Origin: Candidatus Dietzia intestinigallinarum
GTDB lineage: Bacteria > Actinomycetota > Actinomycetes > Mycobacteriales > Mycobacteriaceae
Reading direction: 5' to 3'
NCBI GenBank assembly: GCA_019119875.1
Contig: DWWG01000209.1
Coordinates: 1 to 64,000, forward strand
DNA length: 64,000 nucleotides
Shown: piece by piece, positions 34,573-60,464 of the stretch
How the letters are laid out: each line of letters starts with the position of its first letter
How positions within the stretch are numbered: the stretch's first letter is position 1
Notes under the pieces: model-generated
Seen by the model: the letters and a program-made list of their open reading frames with translations, nothing else
What the model was told of the DNA's origin: nothing
Database searches by the model: none
Program-made: the position numbers and the translations under genes

Positions 34573-34671
34573 TCCCGGGCGGCACCGGGAGCGGCCACGG
34601 GCTCTGCGACCAGCGGATCACCGGCGCCGGAGACCACCTGACGCGCAGAGCATTCGTATCGGTAGCCTGAA

Positions 34672-34692
34672 GTTACTATGGTCGATAGTAAC
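34672..34692. promoter_or_regulatory. palindromic operator over the start codon of the copper membrane gene
   Basis: GTTACTAT and ATAGTAAC, perfect 8-bp arms, flank GGTCG; the ATG of the downstream gene (34678-34680) lies inside the left arm. The core TACTATGGTCGATAGTA differs at one base from the operator at 39045-39061 before copA. A possible -10 TAGCCT sits at 34663-34668, so a bound repressor would cover the transcription start. The AT-rich palindrome in 70% GC DNA stands out clearly. Confidence 0.8.
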
Positions 34693-36648
34693 TCCGGGCG
34701 CCGCCGGGCCGTCACCCGCTCGCCCCTCCTCTGGATCCTCGTGGCACTCGGCGCCCTGATCGCGGTCGCCGGCGTCGTGTGGTCGGGGCCGGTCCCCTAC
34801 GACCTGGTCTCCAGCGCGTATCCGGGAGACCTGTCCGTCGCGCTCATGGCGCTGGCCCGGCTCGTCGCACTGCTGACCGGGTCCGTCACCGCGGGCGCCG
34901 CGGCGTTCGCCACGTTCTTCGTCAGTCACCACCCGGACGGGCTGCTGGGCGGCGCGGGCTACGCGGCCCGCCAGACGGCGTCCAATGCCGCGGCCGTCTG
35001 GACGGTGGCGGCCGCCGTGATGGTCCTCATGACCGCGGCGGACGGAGCGGGCGTAACCGTGCGGGACATGCTCGAGCAGGGCGCGTTCGGGACCCTGTAC
35101 GACGCGATGGAGGCGCCCAACGCCTGGACCGTCTCGTTCCTGGCCGCGGCGATCGTCGCGCTCGTCTTGCGGGCCGCACTCCACTGGACGACCGTGGCGG
35201 CCACACTCTGCCTGTCCGTGCCGGGAGTGATCGCACCGGGCATGGTCGGCAACAACGGCCAGGGCGCCGACCACGATCAGGCCACCAATCTGTTGATGCT
35301 CCATTCGGCAGCCGCGGCCCTGTGGCTGGGCGTCCTCATCGCCACGTGGGCCTACCTGCGCACCCTCGACGAGGACGGGGCCTCGACCGCGGCGGAGGTG
35401 CTCAGGCGTGTCCGGTGGTTCACGGCCGTGGTGCTGGTCGTCCTCGGCGGGACCGGGGTCGGTCTCACGTGGATACAGATCCACGACGGCGACCTCACCT
35501 CCACTTACGGGTTGCTCGCGCTGGGGCAGGCCGCGGCCACGCTCGTGCTCGTGCTGATCGCGGTCGTCCGTGCCCGTCGGCGCGCGCCGGCCGGGGCGAC
35601 ACCCCGCCCCCGGGCCGTCATCCCGGACGTGGCCCTCGTCCTGGCGGTGTTCGCCGTCGCCGCCGTCACCGCCCGCATCCCGTCGCCCGCCATCCTCTAC
35701 ACCGCGGCGTCCGCGCACCAGATCTACATCGGATACGACGTCCCCGGGCCGTGGACCTGGATGGGCCTGCTCACCCGATGGCGCGTCGACCTGCTCTGGT
35801 TGACGATCGCGCTCGCCATGATCGCCGTCTACCTCCTGGCGGTCCGCTCGGTTCGGCGCGCGGGCGGGTCCTGGCCGCGGCACCGGCTCGTCTTCTGGAC
35901 GGCGGGGTGGTTGCTCGTGGTGGTGGCCACCTCGTCCGGCATCAACCTCTGGTCGAGCGCACAGTTCAGCATGCACATGGTGCTGCACCTGATCCTCAAC
36001 CTCGCCGCGGCGCCCCTGCTCGTCGCCGCCGCACCGCTCGGCCTGGCGCGGGTGGCCGGACCGGAGCGGCCCGGGGGGATCAGCGGGCCACGGGAGTGGG
36101 CGACGACGTTCCTGCGCTCGGGACTGGTCCGCACCCTCACCCATCCCTGGGTGGCGCTGACCATCTACGTCATCACGCTGTTCTTCTTCTATCTGACCCC
36201 ACTGTTCGACGACGTGATCCGTTACCACTGGGGGCACCAGTGGATGAACTTCCACTTCCTGGTGACCGGGTTCCTGTTCTTCTGGCCGATACTGGGCATC
36301 GACCTCCTGTACAAGAGGCCGGGCACCCTCGGCCGCGTGGCGTTGCTTCTGGCGATCATGCCGTTCCACGCGCTGTTCGGCATCGTGCTCATGACCTCCG
36401 ACACCCTGCTGGGCAACACCTTCTACGAGGCGTTCGATCTCCTCGACGCCGATGCCCTCCACCACGATCAGCTCATCGGGGGCGTCCTGGTCTGGATCTC
36501 CGGGGAGATACCGGTCCTCGTCGCGGTCGTGGTGTTGCTGGCCAGGTGGCTACGGGACGAGCTCGGTGACGGCGGGCCGTCCGGGGACGACGACGACGAG
36601 TCCGACGAGAGCCGGCTACTGGACGAGCTGCGGGAACTGCGCTCCTGA
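34678..36648 (+). CDS. CopD/CtaG fusion: copper-resistance and cytochrome oxidase assembly-type membrane protein
   Basis: A 656-residue polytopic protein starting at ATG 34678 (MVDSNSGRR), inside the palindromic operator. The N-terminal half has about nine helices with the CopD-type core (LMLHSAAAALWLGVLIATWA, RRVRWFTAVVLVVLGGTGVG). The C-terminal half, from about residue 340, is the CtaG/caa3 assembly domain: SAHQIYIGYDVPGPWTWMGL, FSMHMVLHLILNLAAAPLLV, YHWGHQWMNFHFLVTGFLFF and PFHALFGIVLMTSDTLLGNT, with histidines and methionines suited to copper. Rv0102 of M. tuberculosis has this architecture. The role is probably copper uptake, tolerance or delivery to an oxidase. It is convergent with copA, 5 bp apart. 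Confidence 0.88.
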   Translation: MVDSNSGRRRAVTRSPLLWILVALGALIAVAGVVWSGPVPYDLVSSAYPGDLSVALMALARLVALLTGSVTAGAAAFATFFVSHHPDGLLGGAGYAARQTASNAAAVWTVAAAVMVLMTAADGAGVTVRDMLEQGAFGTLYDAMEAPNAWTVSFLAAAIVALVLRAALHWTTVAATLCLSVPGVIAPGMVGNNGQGADHDQATNLLMLHSAAAALWLGVLIATWAYLRTLDEDGASTAAEVLRRVRWFTAVVLVVLGGTGVGLTWIQIHDGDLTSTYGLLALGQAAATLVLVLIAVVRARRRAPAGATPRPRAVIPDVALVLAVFAVAAVTARIPSPAILYTAASAHQIYIGYDVPGPWTWMGLLTRWRVDLLWLTIALAMIAVYLLAVRSVRRAGGSWPRHRLVFWTAGWLLVVVATSSGINLWSSAQFSMHMVLHLILNLAAAPLLVAAAPLGLARVAGPERPGGISGPREWATTFLRSGLVRTLTHPWVALTIYVITLFFFYLTPLFDDVIRYHWGHQWMNFHFLVTGFLFFWPILGIDLLYKRPGTLGRVALLLAIMPFHALFGIVLMTSDTLLGNTFYEAFDLLDADALHHDQLIGGVLVWISGEIPVLVAVVVLLARWLRDELGDGGPSGDDDDESDESRLLDELRELRS

Positions 36649-36653
36649 GGCGC

Positions 36654-39044
36654 TCACCGTGACTGTCCCGCTCCGTGCCCCGGCGGCTCGAAACGCCGGA
36701 GCCTGAGCGAGTTGCTCACCACGAAGAAGGAGCTGAACGCCATCGCGGCGGCCGAGAAGACAGGATTGAGCAGTCCGGCGGCGGCGATCGGGATCGCGGC
36801 CACGTTGTAGCCGAAGGCCCACAGCAGATTCACCCGGATGGTCCGGAGCGTGGCCGCCGCCAGATCAACCGAGTCGGGAACGATCGTCAGTCGCGAGCGG
36901 ACGAGCACCAGGTCGGCGGCGCTGATCGCCACGTCGCTGCCCGTGGCCACCGCCATCCCGAGATCGGCCACGGCCAGGGCCGGGCCGTCGTTGACGCCGT
37001 CCCCGACCATCGCGACCCGGCGCCCCCGGGACTGCATGTCCCGGATGTGGTCGACCTTGTCGCCCGGCATGAGCCCGGAGTGCGTTTCGTCCACGCCGAC
37101 CTGTTCGGAGATGTGTGCGGCCACGACGGGTCCGTCACCGGTGAGCATCACCGTACGCAGGCCTGCCGCCCGCAGCCGGGACACGGCCTCGGGCGCATCC
37201 GGCCTGACCACGTCGGACAGGCCGAAGGCCGCCACGGCGATCCCCTCCACCGCCGACAGTCCGGTGGTCAGGCCGTCCGCCTCGAGTGCGGTGACCGCGG
37301 CCCGCAGTTCCTCCGACACCTCGACCCCCGAGTCCTCCATCACCAGTAGGCGGCCGACCAGGACGTCGCGTCCGTCCACCCGGCCGCGGACGCCCAGGCC
37401 CGCGGAATTCTCGAAGTCGTCGACGGAGGGGACGTCGACGCGGTGCTCGTCCGCGTACCGCACGATCGCACGGGCGAAAGGGTGCTCGGAGGCGTTCTCC
37501 ACCCCCGCCGTCGCGCGGAGCACCGCCCGGCGGAGCCCGTCACCGGCCCCCGTCCCGGCGCTCGTCACGGGCGCGTCCTCGAGTCCGGCCCGGCGGGCGG
37601 CGTCATGATCGACCTGCACGGACCGGACGGTCAACGTGCCTTCGGTGATGGTGCCGGTCTTGTCGAAGACCACCGTGTCGATGCTGCGTGTGGCCTCGAG
37701 TGCGCGCGGCCCCTTGATGAATATCCCGAGTTGCGCACCTCGCCCCGAGGCCACCATGAGGGCGGTCGGGGTGGCCAGTCCCAGTGCGCACGGGCAGGCG
37801 ATGATCAGCACGGCCAGCGCGGGGCTCGCGGCCTGCGCCACCGAGCCCCCGCCCAGCAGCCACCATGCGAGGAACGTCCCCACGGCCAGCAGGAGCACGG
37901 TCGGCACGAAGATCGACGAGACACGGTCGGCCAGGCGCTGCGCGTCGGCCTTGCCCGATTGTGCCTCGGCGACCATCCGGGACATCTCCGCGAGCCGTGT
38001 CTCCTCGCCGACCGCTGTCGCCCGCGACCGCAGCCGTCCCGAGACGGCGACGGTGCCTCCCACCACCTCGTCGCCCTCGGCGACCGGGATCGGTCGGCTC
38101 TCCCCGGTGAGCATCGAGGTGTCGACCAGAGACGAGCCCTCCTCCACCACCGCGTCCGCGGCGATCGTCTCGCCGGGACGGGTCACGAAGACGTCCCCGA
38201 CCCCGAGCCGCTCGGCCGGAATCCGCATCTCGGCGCCGGATCTGGTGATGATGGTGACGTCCTTGGCCGCCAGTGCGGCGAGGGCCTCGAGGGTGTCCCC
38301 GGCCCGTCGGGTGGCGCGCGCCTCGAGGAACCGCCCGAAGAGCACGAATGTCGTGACGCCGGTCGCGACCTCGAAGTAGATCGCATCGGACTGCATCACC
38401 GCCTCCCAGACCCCGGGCGCCTCGGGGCTCGGGGCGGAGGGCGCGAAGATCGTATAGACCGACCAGAGGGACGCGACCGTGATGCCGATCGACACCAGGG
38501 TGTCCATGGTGGCGACACCGTGCCTGAGGTTGCGGATGGCCGCACTGTGGAACGGCCACGCGCAGTAGGTGACAACGGGGAGCGAGAGCGCGAGCAGTAG
38601 CCACTGCCAGCCGGTGAACCGGGTCGACGGCGCGACGGCGAACATGACCGAAAGGTCCATCACCGGGATGAAGAGGACCACCGCCACGGCGAGGCGGATG
38701 AGCAGCGCACGCATCGCGTCCCGGTGCCGGTGCACGCGAGTGTCCCGGTCGGGTGCGTCGGCGGCCGGGGACGCCGAATAGCCGGCCGCGTCGATGGTGC
38801 TACACAGGCTCTCCTGAGAGACGTCGTCCGGCGCGTCGATCGTCGCGGTTCCCAGCGCGTAGTTGACGGTGGCGACGACCCCGTCGAGCTTGTTGAGCTT
38901 TCTCTCGACCCTGTTCGCGCACGCCGCGCACGTCATGCCGTCGACCGAGAGATCGAGGCGGCGGACGGTGGAACCACTGGGCGATGGCACGGGCGACCTC
39001 CTGATCCGGCTCACGGGGACCACCCCGTCGCCGGGCACGCTCAT
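36654..39044 (-). CDS. copA: copper-translocating P1B-type ATPase
   Basis: A 796-residue protein starting at ATG 39044 (MSVPGDGVV), directly after the palindromic operator; any longer frame would run through hemD. One N-terminal heavy-metal domain (DLSVDGMTCAACANRVERKL) precedes eight helices with the copper CPC motif (LIIACPCALGLATPTALMVA), the actuator TGES (SMLTGESRPIPVAEGD), phosphorylation DKTGTITEG, the SEHPFARAIV nucleotide-domain motif and hinge MVGDGVNDGPALAVAD. The C-terminal helix pair includes NLLWAFGYNVAAIPIAAAGL. It exports Cu(I) with ATP. It is convergent with the CopD/CtaG gene and shares its operator, which implies coordinate, probably copper-responsive, control. Confidence 0.95.
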   Translation of the reverse strand: MSVPGDGVVPVSRIRRSPVPSPSGSTVRRLDLSVDGMTCAACANRVERKLNKLDGVVATVNYALGTATIDAPDDVSQESLCSTIDAAGYSASPAADAPDRDTRVHRHRDAMRALLIRLAVAVVLFIPVMDLSVMFAVAPSTRFTGWQWLLLALSLPVVTYCAWPFHSAAIRNLRHGVATMDTLVSIGITVASLWSVYTIFAPSAPSPEAPGVWEAVMQSDAIYFEVATGVTTFVLFGRFLEARATRRAGDTLEALAALAAKDVTIITRSGAEMRIPAERLGVGDVFVTRPGETIAADAVVEEGSSLVDTSMLTGESRPIPVAEGDEVVGGTVAVSGRLRSRATAVGEETRLAEMSRMVAEAQSGKADAQRLADRVSSIFVPTVLLLAVGTFLAWWLLGGGSVAQAASPALAVLIIACPCALGLATPTALMVASGRGAQLGIFIKGPRALEATRSIDTVVFDKTGTITEGTLTVRSVQVDHDAARRAGLEDAPVTSAGTGAGDGLRRAVLRATAGVENASEHPFARAIVRYADEHRVDVPSVDDFENSAGLGVRGRVDGRDVLVGRLLVMEDSGVEVSEELRAAVTALEADGLTTGLSAVEGIAVAAFGLSDVVRPDAPEAVSRLRAAGLRTVMLTGDGPVVAAHISEQVGVDETHSGLMPGDKVDHIRDMQSRGRRVAMVGDGVNDGPALAVADLGMAVATGSDVAISAADLVLVRSRLTIVPDSVDLAAATLRTIRVNLLWAFGYNVAAIPIAAAGLLNPVFSAAAMAFSSFFVVSNSLRLRRFEPPGHGAGQSR

Positions 39045-39061
39045 TACTATCGTCGATAGTA
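39045..39061. promoter_or_regulatory. palindromic operator immediately before copA
   Basis: TACTATCGTCGATAGTA is a perfect 17-bp palindrome (8-bp arms around one base) abutting the copA ATG at 39044. It also encodes the last residues (YYRR) and the stop codon TAG of the upstream hemD-like gene. It is the better of two copies in the window; the other overlaps the start of the CopD/CtaG gene. Confidence 0.85.
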
Positions 39062-43553: not shown

Positions 43554-44765
43554 TCAGATGTTCAGGCGATATCCGCGCTTGACCACCGTGGCCACCAGCT
43601 CCGGCACGCCGAGGGCCCTGCGGAGTCGGCCCATCGCGGTCTCCACGGCATGCGGGTCCGTACCGCCACCGGGTAACGCGGCAAGAAGATCCTCCCGGCT
43701 CACGCAGGCCCCCGGGCGGCGGGAGAGAGCGCGCAGCAGGCCCAGCTGGGCCGGAGAGACCGCGAGCTGACGACCGTCGATCAACACGGAGGCAGCGCAC
43801 ACCGTGAGTTCGTGGCCGGCCACCTCCACCGGAGCCGTCCGCTCGGCGATCACCTCGGCGGTGTGTCGCATGAGCGATCCGAGCCGCATACGGTCCGGCA
43901 TGCTGACCTGCACTCCCCGCTCGAGCAGCGGTCGGGCGGTGACCGGGCCGACACACAGCGCCGCGACCGCGCCGTCGAGGGAGTCCAGCAGATCGTCGTA
44001 CACACCGATCGCGTCAGCACGCTCGAGCACCGCATTCACCGCGGGCGCTGCGGTGAAGGTCACGCCGTCGACACCGCGAAGAGCGACCTCGCGGACAAGA
44101 TCGTCGAGAGCACCGACATCGTCCGGGAGCTCCCACCGGTATACGGGGACCTCGACCACCTCAGCTCCCGCATCGCGCAGCCCCTTCACCACCTTCGACA
44201 TGGGGTTCCATCCCGGGCCGGCATCCTGCACCTGGACACAGATCGTCCTGCCCTCGACGCCACGCTCGAGCAGCATCTCCAGCAACCCGGGGCTGGCCTC
44301 GTTCGCGGCCGAGGCGTGTTCGTGCAGGCCCGCAGCCCTGATCGCGCCGGTGGTCTTGGGGCCGCGCGAGTACAACGGAATGCGCCCCATCAGATCGAGC
44401 AGGTCGGCGGCCAGTCCCCACTCCTCACACACCTGCATCCACCAGAGCAGGCCCGGGGCCGTACCCAGCACCATCAGATCAGCGGGTGCGGCCAGTGCAC
44501 GTTCAGTGGCCTCGCGCAGCAGCACATCGTCCGCGATCGGGATCATGCGCATCGCGGGGGCGTGCAGTACCCGCGCGCCCCGCCGTTCGAGCAGAGTGCA
44601 CTGTTCGGAGGCTCTCCGGGCAGCGGTCACGGCGATGGTCCGTCCCAGCAGCGGGAACCGCGCCGGCGATCGGCGTGACCCCGGGACGACACCCCGCAGC
44701 GCCGGCAGGCCGGGCCCGGAGGCGAACCCCTGCGCGATTTCTGGACTCGTGTCATCTGCAGCCAT
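43554..44765 (-). CDS. nnaR: NnaR-type nitrate/nitrite assimilation regulator (HemD domain + OmpR-type winged helix)
   Basis: A 403-residue protein starting at ATG 44765 (MAADDTSPEIAQ), with GGAAAGGA upstream; GTG 44768 is also possible. Residues about 30-300 are a HemD-like domain (GRTIAVTAARRASEQCTLLE, RIPLYSRGPKTTGAIRAAGL, VVEVPVYRWELPDDVGALDD). Residues about 310-403 are a winged-helix OmpR/PhoB DNA-binding domain: VCAASVLIDGRQLAVSPAQL, LLRALSRRPGACVSREDLLA, HAVETAMGRLRRALGVPELV and TVVKRGYRLNI. This fusion defines NnaR of Streptomyces and mycobacteria (Rv0260c type), which works with GlnR on nitrate and nitrite genes. Its position between nirBD and nas genes fits. Whether the HemD part is catalytic is unknown. 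Confidence 0.9.
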   Translation of the reverse strand: MAADDTSPEIAQGFASGPGLPALRGVVPGSRRSPARFPLLGRTIAVTAARRASEQCTLLERRGARVLHAPAMRMIPIADDVLLREATERALAAPADLMVLGTAPGLLWWMQVCEEWGLAADLLDLMGRIPLYSRGPKTTGAIRAAGLHEHASAANEASPGLLEMLLERGVEGRTICVQVQDAGPGWNPMSKVVKGLRDAGAEVVEVPVYRWELPDDVGALDDLVREVALRGVDGVTFTAAPAVNAVLERADAIGVYDDLLDSLDGAVAALCVGPVTARPLLERGVQVSMPDRMRLGSLMRHTAEVIAERTAPVEVAGHELTVCAASVLIDGRQLAVSPAQLGLLRALSRRPGACVSREDLLAALPGGGTDPHAVETAMGRLRRALGVPELVATVVKRGYRLNI

Positions 44766-44867
44766 CACACCCGCATCCTTTCCACCCGGTATTTCCACCG
44801 TGTTTCCGTCGGCTTGCCGATGTGATCCGGTTCAGCAGGGCGGGCCGGGCCCGTGTACTGCCCAGCA

Positions 44868-51661: not shown

Positions 51662-51676
51662 CCGGAGGATCATTTG

Positions 51677-52315
51677 ATGGAAACGACCATATCCGCGCCC
51701 CTGTCACGCGCACTGCAGGATTCCACGGCAATAGCGCATGACCGCGCCGAGAATGCCGGTTTCATCACCGACCTGATGTCCGGAAAGGGCACGATCGACG
51801 GGTTCGTGGCGCTGTTGCACCAATCGCTTCCGGTGTACGAGGCATTGGAGGAGGCCTGCCGGGCGGTCGGTGACGATCCGCGCATCGCGGCGATCCTGGA
51901 TCCGCGCCTCGAACGCACCGCCTCCCTCATCGCGGACCTGGAGACACACCGCGCGGCGGGCCACACCTGCGACGTGATCGTCCCCGCGACCGAGTCCTAC
52001 GTCGCGGAACTCAACAGCTGTGCCGGCGACGCCCCCGCGCTGATCGGTCACCACTACGTCCGCTACCTCGGCGACCTGTCGGGTGGGCAGATCATCAAGA
52101 CCATGGTCCGCCGACACTACGGGGTGGAGGAGGGCATGTCGTTCTATGACTTCGACATCCCCAAGCCCAAGGTCTACAAGGACGGTTACCGGGCGGCGCT
52201 CGATGCGCTGCCCCTGTCCGAGGCCGAACGGGATGCGGCTCTCGCCGCCGCCACCCGGGCCTTCGACCTGAATCACCAGCTCTTCCTGGATCTCGAGGCG
52301 GCCGGCATCCGCTGA
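51677..52315 (+). CDS. hmuO: haem oxygenase
   Basis: A 212-residue protein starting at ATG 51677 with GGAGG eight bases upstream (a TTG directly before it is ignored). The proximal haem histidine is in DSTAIAHDRAENAGFI (about residue 21), and the distal helix is HHYVRYLGDLSGGQIIKTMV. Length and motifs match HmuO of Corynebacterium diphtheriae, which opens haem to biliverdin, CO and iron in the cytoplasm. It converges on the haem-uptake operon and has its own iron box. Confidence 0.96.
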   Translation: METTISAPLSRALQDSTAIAHDRAENAGFITDLMSGKGTIDGFVALLHQSLPVYEALEEACRAVGDDPRIAAILDPRLERTASLIADLETHRAAGHTCDVIVPATESYVAELNSCAGDAPALIGHHYVRYLGDLSGGQIIKTMVRRHYGVEEGMSFYDFDIPKPKVYKDGYRAALDALPLSEAERDAALAAATRAFDLNHQLFLDLEAAGIR

Positions 52316-52363
52316 CCGGCCGCACGGGCGGCGGTGAGCGCCGCACCACCAGCCCCGATATCC

Positions 52364-52409
52364 AGCAGCGAGGCCCCGGCACCAGGGAAGGTGCCGGGGC
52401 CTCGCTGCT
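52364..52409. terminator. bidirectional terminator between hmuO and the haem-uptake cluster
   Basis: A perfect 20-bp stem (52364-52383 with 52390-52409; arm AGCAGCGAGGCCCCGGCACC) with a six-base loop, followed by TTCTTGTCT on the plus strand. It separates convergent hmuO and the secreted-protein gene. Confidence 0.93.
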
Positions 52410-52442
52410 TCTTGTCTCCGGACTGCGTCAGACGCGGTCAGG

Positions 52443-53129
52443 TCAGGAGCCGAAGAGGGTCTCGATCGAGCCGATGGTGCCGGCGAGCGATCCGGTGCCC
52501 GACTGCTGGCCGAAGGTGATCCGGGTCTCGGTCTCGTACGGGGCGTGCACCACACCGCCGCCCGCAAAGGTATAGATGCCGTAGTTGCCCGTCTCGGACT
52601 CGGCGTCGGCCGCAGCCTTCGAGACAGTCAGGGTCGTGGTGAAGTCTCCGTTCTCGTCCACCACCACGACCTGTGGGCTTCCGACGAGCATCGGCGCGTC
52701 CGCGGACGCCTGGGGCATCACCCATTTCTGGTCCACGACTTCGCGCCCGGCTCCACTCTCCGAGGGTTTCCACTCGTCGGCGAATTTCCCGAACACCACG
52801 TAGGCGCCCGCGTTCAGCCCGATCACCGGCGGGCGGGTGCCCAGGAGTGTGGGATCGTTGAAGCCTGTGCCGGTGACGGTGACCTCGAACTCGCCCTCCT
52901 CCGGGAAGCTGGTCTGGGAGACGGTGATGCTCGGCCCGTCGACCGCGGGAGCCTGGGCCACCTCCCCGAGCGCGCCGCTGCTGATCCCGCCCAGTGCGGG
53001 CAGAGCGTCGCTGCTGCCCTGGGCTGCGGCCCCGGGTGCGGCGGCGATACCCAGCGCGAGCGCGAGGGCGGATCCGGCGAGCACGGCCCGGCGTCGTGCA
53101 GGACTCTGGCGGACGGCGGTATCGGTCAT
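52443..53129 (-). CDS. secreted beta-rich protein of the haem cluster, family shared with 55883-57313
   Basis: A 228-residue exported protein starting at ATG 53129 with AGGAAGGA upstream. The signal peptide has a twin-arginine-like start (ARRRAVLAGSALALALG) and AAAQ-type cleavage. The mature part holds ITVSQTSFPEEGEFEVTVTG, AYVVFGKFADEWKPSESG, VDQKWVMPQ and ITFGQQSG. The pattern YVxFG-W-PSxxG recurs in the protein at 55883-57313 (VYVTFGWVNERTWRPSQGG), so the two share a domain. Unlike that protein it has no membrane anchor; its tail SLAGTIGSIETLFGS resembles the alternative tail of the HtaB-like gene. A soluble haem carrier is a reasonable guess. The ATG overlaps an anchor remnant (ATGA). Confidence 0.75.
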   Translation of the reverse strand: MTDTAVRQSPARRRAVLAGSALALALGIAAAPGAAAQGSSDALPALGGISSGALGEVAQAPAVDGPSITVSQTSFPEEGEFEVTVTGTGFNDPTLLGTRPPVIGLNAGAYVVFGKFADEWKPSESGAGREVVDQKWVMPQASADAPMLVGSPQVVVVDENGDFTTTLTVSKAAADAESETGNYGIYTFAGGGVVHAPYETETRITFGQQSGTGSLAGTIGSIETLFGS

Positions 53130-53230
53130 TTCAGTTCCTTCCTAGAACTGTCTGGTAAGAACGGCATTGCCGCGAGCGCGAGCAATGCGGCTCCCCACCC
53201 ACCACTGCCACTGGTGGGTGGGGTTTTCTC
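53126..53230 (-). pseudogene. orphan C-terminal membrane-anchor remnant of an HtaA-family gene
   Basis: Read on the minus strand, THQWQWWVG is followed, after a one-base shift, by GAALLALAAMPFLPD and ends SSRKELK at a TGA overlapping the next gene's ATG. The intact HtaA gene ends FTQWQWWLGGALLAIAAGLT, and the DNA is recognisably homologous over about 50 bp to 54330-54400. There is no start or signal peptide, so it is the 3' end of a lost or deleted paralogue, or of an ancestral longer form of the upstream gene. The hairpin CCCCACCCACCA/TGGTGGGTGGGG (53193-53223) is part of this segment. Confidence 0.6.
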
Positions 53231-53270
53231 TGCCTCTCGGCGTGGGGATTCTTGACGTGGTGCCGGCTAC

Positions 53271-53314
53271 GTTCCGGCCCCGGCCTTTCCGTCGGGACAG
53301 GCCGGGGCCGGAAC
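53271..53314 (-). terminator. terminator after the HtaB-like gene
   Basis: GTTCCGGCCCCGGCCT (53271-53286) and AGGCCGGGGCCGGAAC (53299-53314) form a perfect 16-bp stem with a 12-base loop. It lies between the HtaB-like gene and the anchor remnant and may end or attenuate the hmu-hta transcript. Confidence 0.8.
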
Positions 53315-53467
53315 GCTGTGCCGCAGTCCCAGTCTCAGGAACGCGACGCGTGGTGTGTCGGTGCGCCTCAGCCCAGCGAACCGAAGATGTTGCCCAGGGA
53401 GCCGAAGATGCCGCTGTCCTGGCCGTTGTCGCCGCCGTTGTCGCCGCCGTCGTTGTCGTCGACGTCC

Positions 53468-54310
53468 TCAGGCGCCGGGACTCCGGACACCTGGACCGGC
53501 AGGGGGGGCCTTGGAGCTCTGCTGGATACCGCAGCTGGTGGTGTAGTAGTGCGCACGCACCGAGTAGTGGAGCGCGTCGATGAACTCGGGCGGGAAGGCT
53601 CCCCAGATCTGCGGAGATTCGCAGGTGCGGGTCTGCGCCTGGGTGTTGACCGTATCCGCCGGGTTGTACTCCACGTTGGCGAAGTCCGCATTCAAGGTGA
53701 TGGTGCCGTCCTCGGCCACGTCCATGGCGCCGGGGCTGAAGGTGAGCAGCTCGGTGTCCGGCAGGTCCACCTCGGGGGTCGGCTCGCCGTCCATGCCCAC
53801 CGCCTCGGCGAAGTGGAGGTCGAAGACCAGAGTTCCGGAGCCGTCCGGGTTGATCGTCAGGCTGGGGTCCCGGAACGTCTCGTCGGGAGCGCCGTAGGAA
53901 GCCGGGTAGGCGTTGACGGTGAACTCGCCCTCCCAGTCGATCGTGACCACGCCGTTGGCGTCGCGGGAACCGTCGCCGCCCGTGAACTTGGCGGCATTGG
54001 GCGTTGCATCGTTCGGCATCGAGGTGGCCGGGAACTGGGCCGGAGTGTACTCCGTCTGGGTGCCGGTTCCGCCACGGGTGGTGCCTTCGAGGATCTCGGC
54101 GTCGCCCTGGGCGTCGAAGAATCGCCACGCCGCGAAGATGCCCTGCTGCGCGTAGCCGTTCACGCCCCAGATCATGGTCGCATCGTCGAAGGTGTTCTCC
54201 TGAGCGGATGCGGCGGGGACGGCAGCCAAGCCGACCGCCAGCGCCGCCGCTGCGCCGCCGACCATCGCTCTACGTCCTGCGAGCGCGAGAGTGTTTCGGA
54301 TTGTAGACAC
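53468..54310 (-). CDS. HtaA-domain secreted haem-binding protein (HtaB-like), C-terminus frameshifted at a 7-C run
   Basis: The gene starts at GTG 54310, one base after the htaA stop, with AGAGGAAAGG upstream. A signal peptide (AMVGGAAAALAVGLAAVPAA) precedes one HtaA-type domain: DDATMIWGVNGYAQQGIFAA, TIDWEGEFTVNAYPASYGAP, GTLVFDLHFAEAVGMDGEP and IWGAFPPEFIDALHYSVRAH, ending CGIQQSSKAPPAGPGVRSPG at the stop 53468. The frame changes at seven consecutive G (C on the coding strand) at 53502-53508. With six, translation would continue as KAPPLPVQVSGVPAPEDVDD and a Gly/Asp linker to IFGSLGNIFGSLG, stopping at 53368. The longer form looks native; the observed one may be a sequencing error, decay or phase variation. 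Confidence 0.8.
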   Translation of the reverse strand: MSTIRNTLALAGRRAMVGGAAAALAVGLAAVPAASAQENTFDDATMIWGVNGYAQQGIFAAWRFFDAQGDAEILEGTTRGGTGTQTEYTPAQFPATSMPNDATPNAAKFTGGDGSRDANGVVTIDWEGEFTVNAYPASYGAPDETFRDPSLTINPDGSGTLVFDLHFAEAVGMDGEPTPEVDLPDTELLTFSPGAMDVAEDGTITLNADFANVEYNPADTVNTQAQTRTCESPQIWGAFPPEFIDALHYSVRAHYYTTSCGIQQSSKAPPAGPGVRSPGA

Positions 54311-54311
54311 T

Positions 54312-55871
54312 TCAGACCTTTCCTCTGACTGTCAGGTAGGTGAGCCCGGCCGCGATCGCGAGCAGGGCTCCCCCCAACCACCACTGCCACTGGGTGAAGG
54401 GGGCAACCGCCGAGTCGGCGGAAGCATGTGCGTAGTAGACCTCTCCGGCCGCTGCTCGCTCGGAGGCGAGCGGGTACGAGTTGTCTGCGACGGTGTTGAT
54501 CGCGGGAGCGGCGTTGCCGCCGCTCGAACCGCTGGTGGAGGAGTCGCCGGACGACGTGGCGCCGGCGCTGCTGCCGCCGCTACCGCCGCTGGTCGGCGAC
54601 GTCGCCGTGGTCACCGCGTAGCCGACGGTCCCGGCGTTGACCGGGCCGCTGGCCGGAAGGACGTCGTCGTCCGGGTCCTCCGAGGTGCCGCCCGGGTCGC
54701 CACCCGAGTCGACGGTCTCGGACGTCGCTGCGCCCCCCACCGCGGCTCCGGTCACCCGGGCCCCCGTCGGCGCGGTCTCGGCCAGGTCGCTGGAGCCCAG
54801 GTCTCCCCAGGTCGCATCGCCGTTGATGACCGAGTCCAGGTCCTCGCGGATGCGGGTCTGGAAGATGTCCGAGATGTCGTACGCCACGCCTTCGACGAAG
54901 TCGTTGAGCACGTCGGAGAGCAGGCCGCCGGACGATCCACTGCCACTGCCGGCTTGAACGTCGGGCAGGCAGGCACCGGCGCCGTCCCAGGTGATGTTCA
55001 TCGGCAGCGTCGGCTTGAGTCGATCGGACCCGCCGCCGCTGGTGTACCAGTAGGACCCCGATCCGGCGTCGGCCATGAAGTCGATGAACGACGTGGGGAA
55101 CGCTCCCCAGAAGTCGTCGCCGGGATCGACCTGAGGGGTCTCCCCCGGCTTGGCCTCGTACGACACGCCGAGGTACTCGGGCAGGACCACCATTCCGTCC
55201 TCACCGCTGAGATCCATGTCCCGGCGGTCGAAGTCGGCGAGGGTCACCTTCCGGGGATCCATCCTCTCCCACTTCGACGTGTCCTCCATGCTCGACTCGA
55301 AGCCGCCCATCTCGGCCGTCATCTCCGCCCCGGACGAGGTGATGGTCAGGACCGGGTCGGAGACCGTCACGCTCGCCATGCCCGAGTAGTAGAGGATCGT
55401 GTAGGTGCCTTTCCACGTGATCTCGCCCGTTCCGGAGTCGGGATCGATCTCCCCCTCACCGCCGGAGAACACCACTTCCAGACCGTTGTGATCTCCGTTG
55501 GTGATCTCGCCGCCCGAGCGGGTCGTCTGGGTGGAGGCCCATGTCGCCGCGCTGGCGTTTCCGTTCGCGTCACATTTTTCGATGGCGACGTTGCCGTCCG
55601 AGGCTTTCCAGGCCGTGTCGGGGAGCTGCTGATGGGGTCCCGGAAGATCCTCGGTGACGTCTCCGGCGGAGAAGATGTTGAACGTGCCCGGCGCATAGGC
55701 CCGCGTTCCGCTCTCGATGTTCATCCCCCACCGGAACTGTGCATCGGTGACGGTGAACGGCTCCACGGATTCCTGGGCGTTGGCCGTACCGACGAACGGC
55801 GCGGCCGTGGCGACGAGGAACGTCGACGCGAATACTGCTCCCGCTCTCAACGAGCGCATCCTGATGGTCAT
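54312..55871 (-). CDS. htaA: HtaA-type haem-binding surface protein with C-terminal membrane anchor
   Basis: A 519-residue protein starting at ATG 55871 with GGGAAGGG upstream. The signal peptide AVFASTFLVATAAPFVGTAN ends ANAQ. The N-terminal HtaA domain includes VTDAQFRWGMNIESGTRAYA, SGTGEITWKGTYTILYYSGM and DDFWGAFPTSFIDFMADAGS with YWYTSG. A Ser/Gly/Thr-rich stalk (GGSGGSSAGATSSGDSSTSG) leads to the anchor TQWQWWLGGALLAIAAGLTY and a basic TVRGKV end. Corynebacterial HtaA and ChtA bind haem through conserved Tyr and His in such domains and pass it to HmuT. It lies in one tight operon with hmuTUV. Confidence 0.85.
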   Translation of the reverse strand: MTIRMRSLRAGAVFASTFLVATAAPFVGTANAQESVEPFTVTDAQFRWGMNIESGTRAYAPGTFNIFSAGDVTEDLPGPHQQLPDTAWKASDGNVAIEKCDANGNASAATWASTQTTRSGGEITNGDHNGLEVVFSGGEGEIDPDSGTGEITWKGTYTILYYSGMASVTVSDPVLTITSSGAEMTAEMGGFESSMEDTSKWERMDPRKVTLADFDRRDMDLSGEDGMVVLPEYLGVSYEAKPGETPQVDPGDDFWGAFPTSFIDFMADAGSGSYWYTSGGGSDRLKPTLPMNITWDGAGACLPDVQAGSGSGSSGGLLSDVLNDFVEGVAYDISDIFQTRIREDLDSVINGDATWGDLGSSDLAETAPTGARVTGAAVGGAATSETVDSGGDPGGTSEDPDDDVLPASGPVNAGTVGYAVTTATSPTSGGSGGSSAGATSSGDSSTSGSSGGNAAPAINTVADNSYPLASERAAAGEVYYAHASADSAVAPFTQWQWWLGGALLAIAAGLTYLTVRGKV

Positions 55872-55882
55872 GATCCCTTCCC

Positions 55883-57313
55883 TTACCGCTGCGTTGGATA
55901 CTGGTTCGCTGGTGTTCCGGAATAGGCCAGGTTTCCTGAGTGCGATCCGTAGAATTCGTCAACCGAGTTATCACCGGGACTGCCCTGCGGATCACCCGAT
56001 TCCGGGTCATCCTCGTTCTCGCCTGAATTCGCCATGATTCTCCGCGACACCACATATCCGATCGCCGCGATGAAAAGCAGGGCCGCGAGGGAAAGGAAGA
56101 CCCATTCCCATTTGACGGATTCGGAGAATCCGCCATTCACGGAAACGAGCGACACGTCACTGATGGCGAATCGTTGGCTGCCTTCCAGGCCGGATCCGGC
56201 ACCGACCGCACGGATCTCGTATGTGCCGGGTTCGATATCGTCCGGCAGCGTGATCACCCCGGCGATCTCGCCGTCGACACCGGTGGTCAACGGACCGACC
56301 GCGGCTATGCCCTGGCCGAGTGACACCGTGGCCTGCTCCCCCGGCCAGAACCCGTAGGCGGTATAGGCGAGGGCTCCGCCGGGTCTCGCCGAGGCGCGAT
56401 CCACGGTGACCTCGATCGCGCCCGTGGCGCTTCCGCCACCGGACGCCGCCGCGGTGTCGCCCCCGTCCGACTCAGCGCTCTCCGGATCACCGCCGGCGCC
56501 ACCCGAGCTTCGATCACCCGAGGCCGCCGCCGAGCCGCCGCCACCTGAGGACGACTGCTGCTGGACAGCTTCTCGGGTCCGCGCCTGCCCGGTGCCCGCC
56601 TGTGGGCGTTCGGAGGCACCTCGGGCGGACTGCGCCCCGGGCGCCGCGGCGGCAGCTCCTCCGTCGGTCTGCTCACCGCCGCCGTTGTCGTCGCCCCCGG
56701 CGTTCCCGCCTCCGCCGGTGCCTCCGGTGGCTTCGAAGGTGACGGGAACGAAGGTCTCGTTGTTCGCGTTCTTCACCCCGTGGGCGCCGAAGGTCATCCA
56801 GCCGCAGGTGACCCGCGTGCAGTCGACCGTCACGGTCTTGCCGCTCCGATCCTTCGCGGTGAAACGAGGACCCGGCACGTTCAGCGAGAGTCGAAACGAC
56901 CCGTTGCTGGAGAACGTGGCGTGCGCCTCACCCTCGGTGGACGACCCCGGGTAGGCGACGAATCCCATGTAACCCTGGTTGTTCTTCGATTCCGAGTCGG
57001 GGACGTACTGATAGTCGGTCCCGGTCACGCCCCCCTGGGACGGGCGCCACGTGCGTTCGTTGACCCAGCCGAAGGTGACATAGACACCGCCGAATCCCCC
57101 CTCGATCACCTGGTATCCCGAACCCTGCAGATCGAACCGTGTGGGACCGTTTGTCGAGGCGGTGACACCACCGAGCTCACTGGTCACCGACAGTCGAGCC
57201 GCGGCGTCGGCCGAGGGCGGCGCGAGTACCGACACCAGAGCCGCGACCAGTCCGGCGACCGCGAACAACGCCACCAACGGCAGCGTCCGGAAACGAATCG
57301 TTGACACCTTCAC
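55883..57313 (-). CDS. cell-surface anchored protein of the haem operon (HtaC-like position), unknown function
   Basis: A 476-residue protein starting at GTG 57313, overlapping the hmuV stop (GTGA), with CGGAGAG upstream. The signal peptide LVALFAVAGLVAALVSVLAP ends ADAA. Residues about 38-195 hold the domain shared with 52443-53129 (VYVTFGWVNERTWRPSQGG, YMGFVAYPGSSTEGEAHATF, and a Cys pair VDCTRVTCGWMTFGAHG). A Gly/Ser/Ala-rich linker follows, then an Ig-like repeat (AIEVTVDRASARPGGALAYT, VSLVSVNGGFS), a membrane helix WVFLSLAALLFIAAIGYVVS and an acidic cytoplasmic tail. Its place inside the operon suggests haem capture or relay, but no HtaA motif is present. Confidence 0.75.
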   Translation of the reverse strand: MKVSTIRFRTLPLVALFAVAGLVAALVSVLAPPSADAAARLSVTSELGGVTASTNGPTRFDLQGSGYQVIEGGFGGVYVTFGWVNERTWRPSQGGVTGTDYQYVPDSESKNNQGYMGFVAYPGSSTEGEAHATFSSNGSFRLSLNVPGPRFTAKDRSGKTVTVDCTRVTCGWMTFGAHGVKNANNETFVPVTFEATGGTGGGGNAGGDDNGGGEQTDGGAAAAAPGAQSARGASERPQAGTGQARTREAVQQQSSSGGGGSAAASGDRSSGGAGGDPESAESDGGDTAAASGGGSATGAIEVTVDRASARPGGALAYTAYGFWPGEQATVSLGQGIAAVGPLTTGVDGEIAGVITLPDDIEPGTYEIRAVGAGSGLEGSQRFAISDVSLVSVNGGFSESVKWEWVFLSLAALLFIAAIGYVVSRRIMANSGENEDDPESGDPQGSPGDNSVDEFYGSHSGNLAYSGTPANQYPTQR

Positions 57314-58230
57314 GAGACACTCTCCGAATCAGATGAGGAGTTCAGCCCGGCTCCGGCGAATCCGCGATCGGCGCCCGGGGCGTCCGGGTGTTCCACACCG
57401 TTGCGCCTGTCGCGCCGGTCCGGAGTGACCAGCAGGTCACCGGTGACGGGATGACGATGGACGAGAACGGGCTGCTGATAGACCTCGTTGATCAGCTCTT
57501 CGGTGAGGACCTGCTCCGGGGCCCCTTCCGCCCGCACCGCCCCCCGGGACAGCAGCACGATCCGGTCGGCGTACGCCGCCGCGAGGGCGAGATCGTGCAG
57601 CACCACCACCACGGCTCCGCCGGAGTCGGCCGCCTCGCGGGCCAGGTTGAGCACGATCTCCTGGTGCCGCAGATCCACGGCCGCGGTCGGCTCGTCCAGC
57701 ATCAGGATGCCGGTCTCCTGCGCCAGTGCCCGGGACATGGACACCCGGCCCTTCTCCCCGCCGGACAGCGTCGGGAAGGTGCGGCTTTGCAGGTGCGCCA
57801 CCTCGGTGGCCTCCAGCGCGGTGTCGATCGCGATGTCGTCGCGCTCCTCGGCCTCGGTGTTGATCCACGGTGCCCGCGCCATGGCGACCACCTCGCGGAC
57901 CGAGAACGGGAACGAGACCGTGTTGACCTGGCTCAGCATCGCCCTACGACGGGACAGATCCTTGAGTTTCCAGTCGGCCAGCGGCACCTCGTCGAGGTAG
58001 ACGCGTCCCGAGTCCGGGCGGGTGTCCCCGGCCACGACTCCCAGGAGCGTCGACTTGCCGGCACCGTTCGGGCCGACGAGCGCGAGCATCTCCCCGTGCC
58101 GGATCGTCAGGTCGATGGAGTCGAGGAGCACCTTTCCGCCGATGCTGTAGGACACGTTCTCCACGACGATCGCGGGCGTACCGGGCCGGATCTCCTCGCC
58201 CGGGGCCCCGCCTGCACGTGTGTGGCTCAT
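57310..58230 (-). CDS. hmuV: haem ABC transporter ATP-binding protein
   Basis: A 306-residue ATPase starting at ATG 58230, which overlaps the hmuU stop. All ABC motifs are present: Walker A ALVGPNGAGKSTLLGVVAG, Q-loop AMLSQVNTVSFPFSVREVVA, signature TLSGGEKGRVSMSRALAQE, Walker B GILMLDEPTAAVDLRH and H-loop VVVVLHDLALAAAYADRIVL. The C-terminal extension PVLVHRHPVTGDLLVTPDR is typical of the HmuV/FecE type. It energises HmuU. Confidence 0.96.
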   Translation of the reverse strand: MSHTRAGGAPGEEIRPGTPAIVVENVSYSIGGKVLLDSIDLTIRHGEMLALVGPNGAGKSTLLGVVAGDTRPDSGRVYLDEVPLADWKLKDLSRRRAMLSQVNTVSFPFSVREVVAMARAPWINTEAEERDDIAIDTALEATEVAHLQSRTFPTLSGGEKGRVSMSRALAQETGILMLDEPTAAVDLRHQEIVLNLAREAADSGGAVVVVLHDLALAAAYADRIVLLSRGAVRAEGAPEQVLTEELINEVYQQPVLVHRHPVTGDLLVTPDRRDRRNGVEHPDAPGADRGFAGAGLNSSSDSESVS

Positions 58231-59366
58231 CCCCAACCCCCTGCGGTGCGACGTGTGCGGCGGAGCAGCCAGAAGAAGAACGGTCCACCGACGAGCGCGG
58301 TGATCATGCCGAGAGGCAGGTCCGCGTAGGCGACCGCGGTGCGGGCGAAGAGGTCGGCCGCGGTGAGCACGAGCGCACCACCGACGACGGACGCCGGGAT
58401 GAGCATCCGGTGGCCGGGCCCGATCATCATGCGGATCAGGTGCGGCACCACCAGTCCGACAAAGGCGACGATCCCGACGAACGAGACCGCTGCCGCGGTG
58501 AGCAGGCCCACCAGCAGGATCGAGAAGATCCGCAGCCGCTCGACGTCCACACCCAGGTGACGGGCCGAGCGTTCGCCCAGCGACAGGATGTCCAGGGAAC
58601 GGGCCAGCCGCATCGACAGGAGGATGCCGATGATCGCGATGGGCGCGACGATGACGACCTGTTCCCAGCGGCTTCCGGCCAGGCTGCCCATCTGCCAGAA
58701 CACGATCTCCTCGCGGGCCTGGGTGTCGCCGATGAACATGAGGAACGCCAGCAGCGCGCCGGCGACGGCGTTGATCGCGATACCGGTGAGGACGAGCGTC
58801 ACGACCTCGGTCCGGCCGTTGCTGCGGCTGAACAGGTACACGGCCGCGGTGGTTGCCACTCCCGCGACGAACGCGCACACGACCTGGGTCCAGGAACCGA
58901 AGGCGGTGAGGCCGAAGACGATCGCCGCGGCGGCGCCGACCGCGGCACCGGAGGAGACGCCCACGACGCTGGGTTCGGCGAGCGGGTTCCCGAACGCGCC
59001 CTGCATGAGCACGCCCCCGATGGCCAGTGCCGCGCCGACAGCCGCCGCCATGGCCACCCGGGGGAACCGGACGCTCCAGAGCGTGTTGTAGGCCTGCGGA
59101 TGCGACGCGGCCCCACCGACGTCGATGCCGATCCCCTGCAGGAAGCCGGAGGCCACCTCTCCGACCGGGATGGACAGCTGGCCGGAGCTGGCGGAGATGA
59201 GGATGAACACGACCAGCGCGACCAGCATGCCGACGATCAGCGCCATTCCGGAGAACATGCGTTTCGCCGAGCCCGGCTCGCCGCCCCGCGCCGGGGAGGC
59301 TGCGGGCGTTTCCGGTGCGGGCGCGGGTGTGGTGGCCGCCCTGCGGGGGCTCTCTGTGGTGGTCAC
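58227..59366 (-). CDS. hmuU: haem ABC transporter permease (FecCD family)
   Basis: A 379-residue permease starting at GTG 59366, overlapping the hmuT stop (GTGA). Eight to ten helices carry family motifs: LWSVRFPRVAMAAAVGAALA, GVLMQGAFGNPLAEPSVVGV, SSGAAVGAAAAIVFGL, VLTGIAINAVAGALLAFLMF, FWQMGSLAGSRWEQV, LGERSARHLGVDVERLRIFS and VGIVAFVGLVVPHLIRMMIG, the last being the ATPase coupling loop. The N-terminal 35 residues are a cytoplasmic Ala/Pro/Thr-rich extension. It moves haem inward with HmuV. Confidence 0.95.
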   Translation of the reverse strand: MTTTESPRRAATTPAPAPETPAASPARGGEPGSAKRMFSGMALIVGMLVALVVFILISASSGQLSIPVGEVASGFLQGIGIDVGGAASHPQAYNTLWSVRFPRVAMAAAVGAALAIGGVLMQGAFGNPLAEPSVVGVSSGAAVGAAAAIVFGLTAFGSWTQVVCAFVAGVATTAAVYLFSRSNGRTEVVTLVLTGIAINAVAGALLAFLMFIGDTQAREEIVFWQMGSLAGSRWEQVVIVAPIAIIGILLSMRLARSLDILSLGERSARHLGVDVERLRIFSILLVGLLTAAAVSFVGIVAFVGLVVPHLIRMMIGPGHRMLIPASVVGGALVLTAADLFARTAVAYADLPLGMITALVGGPFFFWLLRRTRRTAGGWG

Positions 59367-60457
59367 AGTGCCCCCGGCGCGTAGAGGGCGACGGCGAGAG
59401 CGTTGAGAACCGCGGGTGTGCGGGTGCCGTAGGACAGGATCTGCTCATCGGGCATCGCGATCACGCGACGGTTCTGGCCCGCCGGGGTGTTGGCCAGCGC
59501 CGGGAACTGCTCGATGAGTCCGTCGATGCCGCCCACGGACTCCAGTCCCTTGGTCATCATCAACAGGACGTCCGGTTGGGCGGAGATGATGGCCTCGTCG
59601 TTGGCCGGTCTGGCGCCGGACCACCCGATCTCGGAGGAGACGTCGTAGCCGCCGGCGGCCTCGATCAGCGAGTCCGCGCCACTGTCCTCGCCGAAGATGT
59701 AGTAGATGCCGGCCTGCCCGCGAGCGTAGATGAACAGGGTCCGCAGTTCCTGGTTGAGGTCGGTGGGGACGATCGTCTCCACCCCTGCGATCGAGGTGGC
59801 GGTCTCCGCCTCGATGCGCTCGGCCAGCTTCGCGCCGCGCTCCGGGACCCCGAGCGCCTCCGCGACCGACATCGTCAGGCTCGTGATGTTGTCCAGCCCG
59901 CGGTCGGCGTCGACCACCACGACGGGGATCCCGGCATCACGCATCTGCAGCACGACGTCCCAGGGCCCGAGGGAGGTGTCGGTGATGAGCACCGAGGGGT
60001 TGAGGTCGAGTATCGCCTCGGCGCTGAGCTCGTGGCCGTTGGTCGTGACCAGCGGCCGGTCGGCGATCTCGTCGAAGCTGGAGGAGACGTCCCTGCCGAT
60101 CACGTTGTCGCCCAGACCGAGCTCGAACACCATGCGGGATGTGGTGCCGTACAGATCGAGCGGGAGGATCCGGCTGATGTCGGTGATCTCCACCTCGGTG
60201 CCCTGGTTGTCCGTGACCGTGACGGGAAGGACCGGCTCGGGGCCGTCCACCGGGTCGATCGGATCGTCGGCCAGATCCAGGATCAACTCACCCTGGAAGT
60301 CACGAGTGTCCGACGCGGGGGTCACCTCCGCGGCCGACGGGGCCTCGGTGATCACATCGCCGCCCGACGCGCCGCCGGAGGCACCGCAGGCACCCAGTGT
60401 CAGGACTAGAAGTGCGGAGGTCACGATACGGGCCGCACCCGTGCGTCTTCTGAGCAT
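59363..60457 (-). CDS. hmuT: haem-binding lipoprotein HmuT (ABC substrate-binding protein)
   Basis: A 364-residue protein starting at ATG 60457 (MLRRRTGAARIV); TATTCT lies six bases upstream, so translation is probably leaderless, and a TTG at 60463 is ignored. The signal peptide ends in lipobox TLGAC, so it is lipid-anchored. The TroA-like two-lobe fold shows LDLYGTTSRMVFELGLGDNV, VTTNGHELSAEAILDLNPSV with a candidate axial His, IPVVVVDADRGLDNITSLTM and YARGQAGIYYIFGEDSGADS with a candidate Tyr ligand. It receives haem from HtaA proteins. It is first in a probable operon hmuT-hmuU-hmuV-57313-htaA-htaB. Confidence 0.94.
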   Translation of the reverse strand: MLRRRTGAARIVTSALLVLTLGACGASGGASGGDVITEAPSAAEVTPASDTRDFQGELILDLADDPIDPVDGPEPVLPVTVTDNQGTEVEITDISRILPLDLYGTTSRMVFELGLGDNVIGRDVSSSFDEIADRPLVTTNGHELSAEAILDLNPSVLITDTSLGPWDVVLQMRDAGIPVVVVDADRGLDNITSLTMSVAEALGVPERGAKLAERIEAETATSIAGVETIVPTDLNQELRTLFIYARGQAGIYYIFGEDSGADSLIEAAGGYDVSSEIGWSGARPANDEAIISAQPDVLLMMTKGLESVGGIDGLIEQFPALANTPAGQNRRVIAMPDEQILSYGTRTPAVLNALAVALYAPGAL

Positions 60458-60464
60458 GCGCAAA

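Follow-up and report, generated by a model that had tools for sequence, protein, structure and literature searches.

The window analysed here, a stretch of 64,000 nucleotides from Candidatus Dietzia intestinigallinarum, contains two convergent copper genes whose outer ends carry nearly the same palindrome, which raises the question of which regulator would recognize both sites and to what signal it would respond.

The copper genes and their palindromes

The gene on the + strand, copD-ctaG (34678-36648), encodes a fusion protein of 656 residues in which a CtaG domain (Caa3_CtaG, 246 bits) lies behind a CopD-like half. Pfam makes no call of a CopD domain in this fusion, even at a loose threshold; a Rhodococcus fusion to which it is 33% identical over 586 residues is called by Pfam as both CopD and CtaG. 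On the − strand, copA (36654-38990) encodes a copper-exporting P1B-1 ATPase of 778 residues, counted from a GTG at 38990, as indicated by TIGR01511 (479 bits against a cut-off of 397) and the motifs CxxC, CPC, YN(x4)P and MxxSS. The genes end at 36648 and 36654, leaving a gap of 5 bp, and thus converge as the initial annotation described.

Both palindromes of that annotation are found. The copy at copA, TACTATCGTCGATAGTA (39045-39061, no strand assigned), is a perfect palindrome except for the odd central base, and the copy at copD-ctaG, TACTATGGTCGATAGTA (34674-34690, likewise unstranded), departs from it at a single base and does overlap the copD start, with the ATG at 34678 inside it. Judged by its sequence, TAGCCT (34663-34668, + strand), conserved in Candidatus Dietzia intestinipullorum (G006, the sole close relative), is a possible −10 element; its location 9 nt before the copD ATG suggests that the transcript is leaderless, with a start that the operator would cover.

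The perfect palindrome was said to abut the start of copA; its position is confirmed, and the abutment is improbable. The sister species has ATC in place of the ATG at 39044 and conserves the GTG at 38990 together with AGGAGG (38997-39002, − strand), the probable ribosome-binding site; the operator is therefore placed approximately 54 nt upstream of the copA start, which is probably the GTG. The final codons of HEM4 (39949-39047, − strand), the gene upstream, also fall within the operator; the HEM4 product is uroporphyrinogen-III synthase-like and lacks the usual winged helix at its C-terminus. The placement of the putative operators, in the promoter region of copA and over the ATG of copD, would suit a repressor.

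The short HEM4 gene ends exactly at the copA operator in the sister species as well. It and a paralogue at 43554-44798 flank a nitrite-reductase-like gene, and the full-length one of the two has a C-terminal Trans_reg_C winged helix. Further along the window, inspection by eye of 51674-60463 reveals a heme-oxygenase-like gene, several secreted HtaA-like proteins and an iron/heme ABC transporter, which probably form a heme-uptake cluster.

A third copy of the core beside a BlaI-family gene

With up to three mismatches allowed, these two places are the only matches in the window (mean of 0.01 matches in 100 shuffles), and the 17-mer pattern matches only the copA and copD sites in the whole 3.55-Mb genome at the same stringency. 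The core ACTAT-N5-ATAGT occurs in exactly three copies in the genome, at copA, at copD and at the cluster described below, compared with an expectation per genome of 0.1 from base composition to 0.007 from a second-order Markov model. The motif is rare, and the frequent random recurrence that the initial annotation had named as an argument against itself is not seen. Four further cores with one mismatch (L010-L013) are located within or beside unrelated genes of the genome and look like chance occurrences.

The third core lies at position 16637 of contig C234, and 17 bp from it is a copy with one mismatch. One side is occupied by a DsbA-like gene and, after it, CcdA/DsbD-type genes; on the other, and divergent from these, is a cluster encoding a 206-residue membrane protein with a CPVCNK motif, a BlaI-family protein (BlaI2, C234:15629-15955, outside the window) and a membrane zinc protease. 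A further copy had been expected before the regulator gene, and the sole other exact core is indeed situated in the promoter region of the BlaI2 cluster; the residence of BlaI2 on another contig agrees with the observation that no candidate regulator lies beside the copper pair. BlaI2 appears to control its own neighbourhood too, namely the protease, the CPVCNK protein, DsbA and the CcdA-type genes.

A small membrane protein with the motif CP(V/L)CNK recurs beside BlaI-linked sites (L004:1860-2480, L125:7973-8488 and L128:5984-6481); two of these proteins have no Pfam family, and the third has a sub-threshold match to MerT.

BlaI2 contains the Penicillinase_R winged-helix domain PF03965 (79.8 bits against a cut-off of 22.6), which places it in the BlaI/MecI/CopY family. 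Its only cysteines are Cys8 and Cys59, with no CxC and no obvious metal-binding motif. Among solved structures, the only match by sequence is 2g9w (M. tuberculosis BlaI, Rv1846c; E 1.1e-13), yet in the tree Rv1846c clusters with BlaI1, the second BlaI of the genome (support 0.84). BlaI2 groups instead with the site-linked BlaI proteins of other genera, with a support of 0.997.

Conservation within Dietzia

BlaI2 is present in 10 of 23 Dietzia genomes, all 10 of which carry an adjoining core, often in tandem. A genome that possesses BlaI1 without BlaI2 (G020) has no core. In G017, a genome that is 78% complete and in which no BlaI was found, the core TACTATGCGGCATAGTA precedes a DsbA-CcdA operon. 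A core match in G022, where no BlaI was found either, is a tetO-like sequence and was set aside.

The copper pair itself is an accessory trait: close orthologues of copD are confined to the window genome and G006 (85% identity), and a search of genome contigs with the window CopD yields the sister species and otherwise homologues of approximately 30% identity in Propionibacteriaceae. The sister species, the only other one with the pair, keeps both operators. The copD operator is identical there at 16 of 17 positions, whereas the sequence 60-100 bp upstream falls to 6 of 17; the copA operator is identical at 17 of 17, which weighs less because its flank on the copA side is nearly as conserved. 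The retrieved flanks of the CtaG paralogues of other Dietzia genomes (about 30-36% identity) contain no such site.

Within Dietzia, the outer base pair is T...A at the copper sites and G...C at the BlaI2 site. This difference need not mean two regulators, since one promoter before a BlaI gene (L131) carries both types in tandem.

The probable operator across the family

Of the 401 genomes of the family, 72, which belong to 17 of the 31 genera, contain the full pattern TACTAT-N5-ATAGTA, compared with approximately 5 for the reversed control. Its copies are clustered, with up to 15 per genome, and often lie in the vicinity of BlaI-protease pairs. In 20 regions around sites, picked non-randomly from the matches, 14 contain a BlaI gene. 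The genes behind the sites include DsbA-CcdA, copZ-copA, CopD-CtaG, ctaD, ctaE and thioredoxin/TlpA types, in addition to apolipoprotein N-acyltransferase, signal peptidase II, L,D-transpeptidase and BlaI itself. In other genera, then, counterparts of both window genes carry the operator, namely copZ-copA (L123) and CopD-CtaG (L126 and L152).

Several sites belong to islands with CopC, CopD, copA and multicopper oxidases, and the named examples are plasmids of Rhodococcus fascians PBTS 2 (L152) and R. ruber MSA14 (L153). The former carries eight sites, which lie before DUF3105, M23, CopC, ctaD, CopD-CtaG/CDF, lspA/lnt and ResB genes and also approximately 0.5 kb before M23-BlaI-M56 genes; the latter carries five. 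When the spacer of 5 is replaced by 3, 4, 6 or 7, no site is found in either plasmid.

In two other genera, the gene immediately behind the operator encodes an L,D-transpeptidase, an enzyme with a catalytic cysteine (L125:6497-7879 and L133:3707-5011), which hints that cell-wall enzymes may belong to the same regulon. One copy of TACTAT-N5-ATAGTA (L124:3816) precedes the gene of an ABC transporter permease; the 10-kb region retrieved around it holds neither a BlaI nor a copper gene, and the copy is either a chance occurrence or an unexplained target.

The partner protease

The protease beside BlaI2 has 326 residues, four TM-like segments and an HExxH motif (HESAH at 191). A CxxC motif is present in its TM2-TM3 loop, which corresponds to EL1 of BlaR1 (PMC9834060). 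In Pfam, Peptidase_M48 scores above the cut-off and M56 below it, and neither Pfam nor NCBIfam scans reveal a penicillin-binding sensor domain.

The AlphaFold model of the protease has a mean pLDDT of 77, with values below 50 in the CxxC loop. BlaR1 is the best match of the model in VIA-align (Z 12.2, 227 residues, rmsd 6.2), and such Z values can be reached by mostly helical models without kinship. The resemblance to BlaR1 is nevertheless upheld because the five top-ranking matches are all BlaR1 (Z 10.3-12.2) and the catalytic motif fits as well. It derives from VIA-align and not from Foldseek, in which the model gives nothing significant (best E 0.011, with BlaR1 third and fourth). A membrane zinc protease with HExxH and a BlaR1 fold thus stands beside the repressor, as is characteristic of a BlaR1-type partner.

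Which regulator, and which signal

The predicted link between the operator and BlaI2 is well supported by these comparisons. The proposal of the initial annotation that one regulator of the BlaI/CopY type serves both copper genes gains from the third core beside BlaI2 and from the same linkage in relatives, with the qualification that the regulator is not CopY itself. A regulator other than BlaI2 at both copper genes, such as BlaI1, a TetR-family protein or CsoR, is improbable. The genome does hold the second BlaI and two CsoR genes, which lie on other contigs, one of them adjoining a P-type ATPase gene. However, the BlaI1 gene, transcribed divergently from a cytochrome bd-like gene, is preceded in five genomes by a different, conserved TAGAA..TTCTA-like repeat (L003:1400-1460), because of which BlaI1 may have its own operator; its grouping with Rv1846c and the genome with BlaI1 only and no core also argue against it. 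The case for a TetR-family protein comes from the CTATC-N3-GATAG contained in the copA site, which resembles a tetO core, and from the tetO-like match in G022; these inner bases are absent at the copD site and at most sites elsewhere. As for CsoR, a scan of the window with two simple CsoR-like patterns gave no match to either. That the palindromes are chance or mere coding sequence, as the location of one over a start codon and of the other over the end of HEM4 might suggest, is most improbable in light of an expectation far below one per genome, their retention in the sister species and the family-wide link to copper, thiol and BlaI genes.

The reading that we consider probable is that the palindromes are BlaI2 operators and that BlaI2 represses copD and copA until an extracytoplasmic signal, either copper or thiol stress, leads the protease to cleave it. 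Bound as a dimer to TACTAT-N5-ATAGTA, BlaI2 would block both promoters; copper, or thiol damage caused by copper, would be sensed outside the membrane and activate the protease; and the loss of BlaI2 through cleavage by the activated protease would switch on the genes for copper export and disulfide enzymes together. This would tie copper export to the disulfide-making enzymes of the cell. With the same regulator and sites, the signal could be a general extracytoplasmic thiol, disulfide or envelope stress, of which copper is one cause only, and we regard this as a possible though not the expected outcome. The DsbA and CcdA-type proteins encoded at the BlaI2 cluster, the CxxC in the protease loop and the many targets elsewhere that are thiol, lipoprotein or cell-wall enzymes, including L,D-transpeptidases, are consistent with such a signal, whereas the fact that both targets in the window are copper genes and the islands elsewhere with CopC, CopD, copA and multicopper oxidases point to copper.

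Relation to known systems

By its published description, the closest working analogue of the BlaI2-protease pair is PetR-PetP of Synechocystis, the plastocyanin/cytochrome c6 switch, which pairs a BlaI-family regulator with a BlaR1-family protease at copper-related genes; the protease is reported to be activated by copper and to destroy the regulator (PMC7896320, PMC13421787). That system acts in photosynthetic electron transport, with PetR serving also as an activator of petJ, whereas the Dietzia pair is found in Actinomycetota at genes for copper export and disulfide formation. Copper-triggered cleavage is reported for PetR-PetP; for Dietzia it is proposed.

The staphylococcal systems BlaI-BlaR1 and MecI-MecR1 share the repressor family, the two-gene logic and an HExxH protease with a BlaR1-like fold, but the Dietzia protease lacks the penicillin-binding sensor domain, and neither beta-lactamase nor PBP2a is among the targets. 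CopY/CopR of Firmicutes belongs to the same repressor superfamily and also controls copper export genes. The identification of BlaI2 as CopY was rejected: BlaI2 has no C-terminal CxC, its operator is TACTAT-N5-ATAGTA and not the TACANNTGTA contained in the CopY operator (PMC7253601), and it scores 31.1 bits with the NCBIfam model CopY_TcrY against a cut-off of 121.95. For M. tuberculosis BlaI, the reported targets comprise ATP-synthase-linked genes and others, but not those of copper export (PMC12565901, PMC7924339). In the openly accessible papers searched, no actinobacterial copper BlaI/M56 system was found.

More speculatively, and with less confidence than we attach to any of the signals considered above, Mycobacteriales may possess a copper/disulfide sensor composed of BlaI and a BlaR1-like protease without a penicillin-binding domain, in which the CxxC (or a single Cys) of the EL1-equivalent loop would be the sensing site and the DsbA of the regulon would reset the sensor. 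A partly plasmid-borne regulon of this kind would couple copper export to the renewal of copper-sensitive extracytoplasmic cysteine enzymes.

A "BlaI/MecI/CopY regulator" beside an "M56 peptidase" is annotated in many actinobacterial genomes with no signal assigned, and the names suggest beta-lactams. One clade of these BlaI-protease pairs now has a predicted 17-bp operator and a set of targets comprising copper export, cytochrome oxidase, lipoprotein maturation and disulfide enzymes, and with a concrete operator and target list, the signal becomes directly testable. Should copper prove to be the signal, sensing of the metal by way of a protease, as in PetR-PetP, would extend to Actinomycetota, including plasmids of Rhodococcus.
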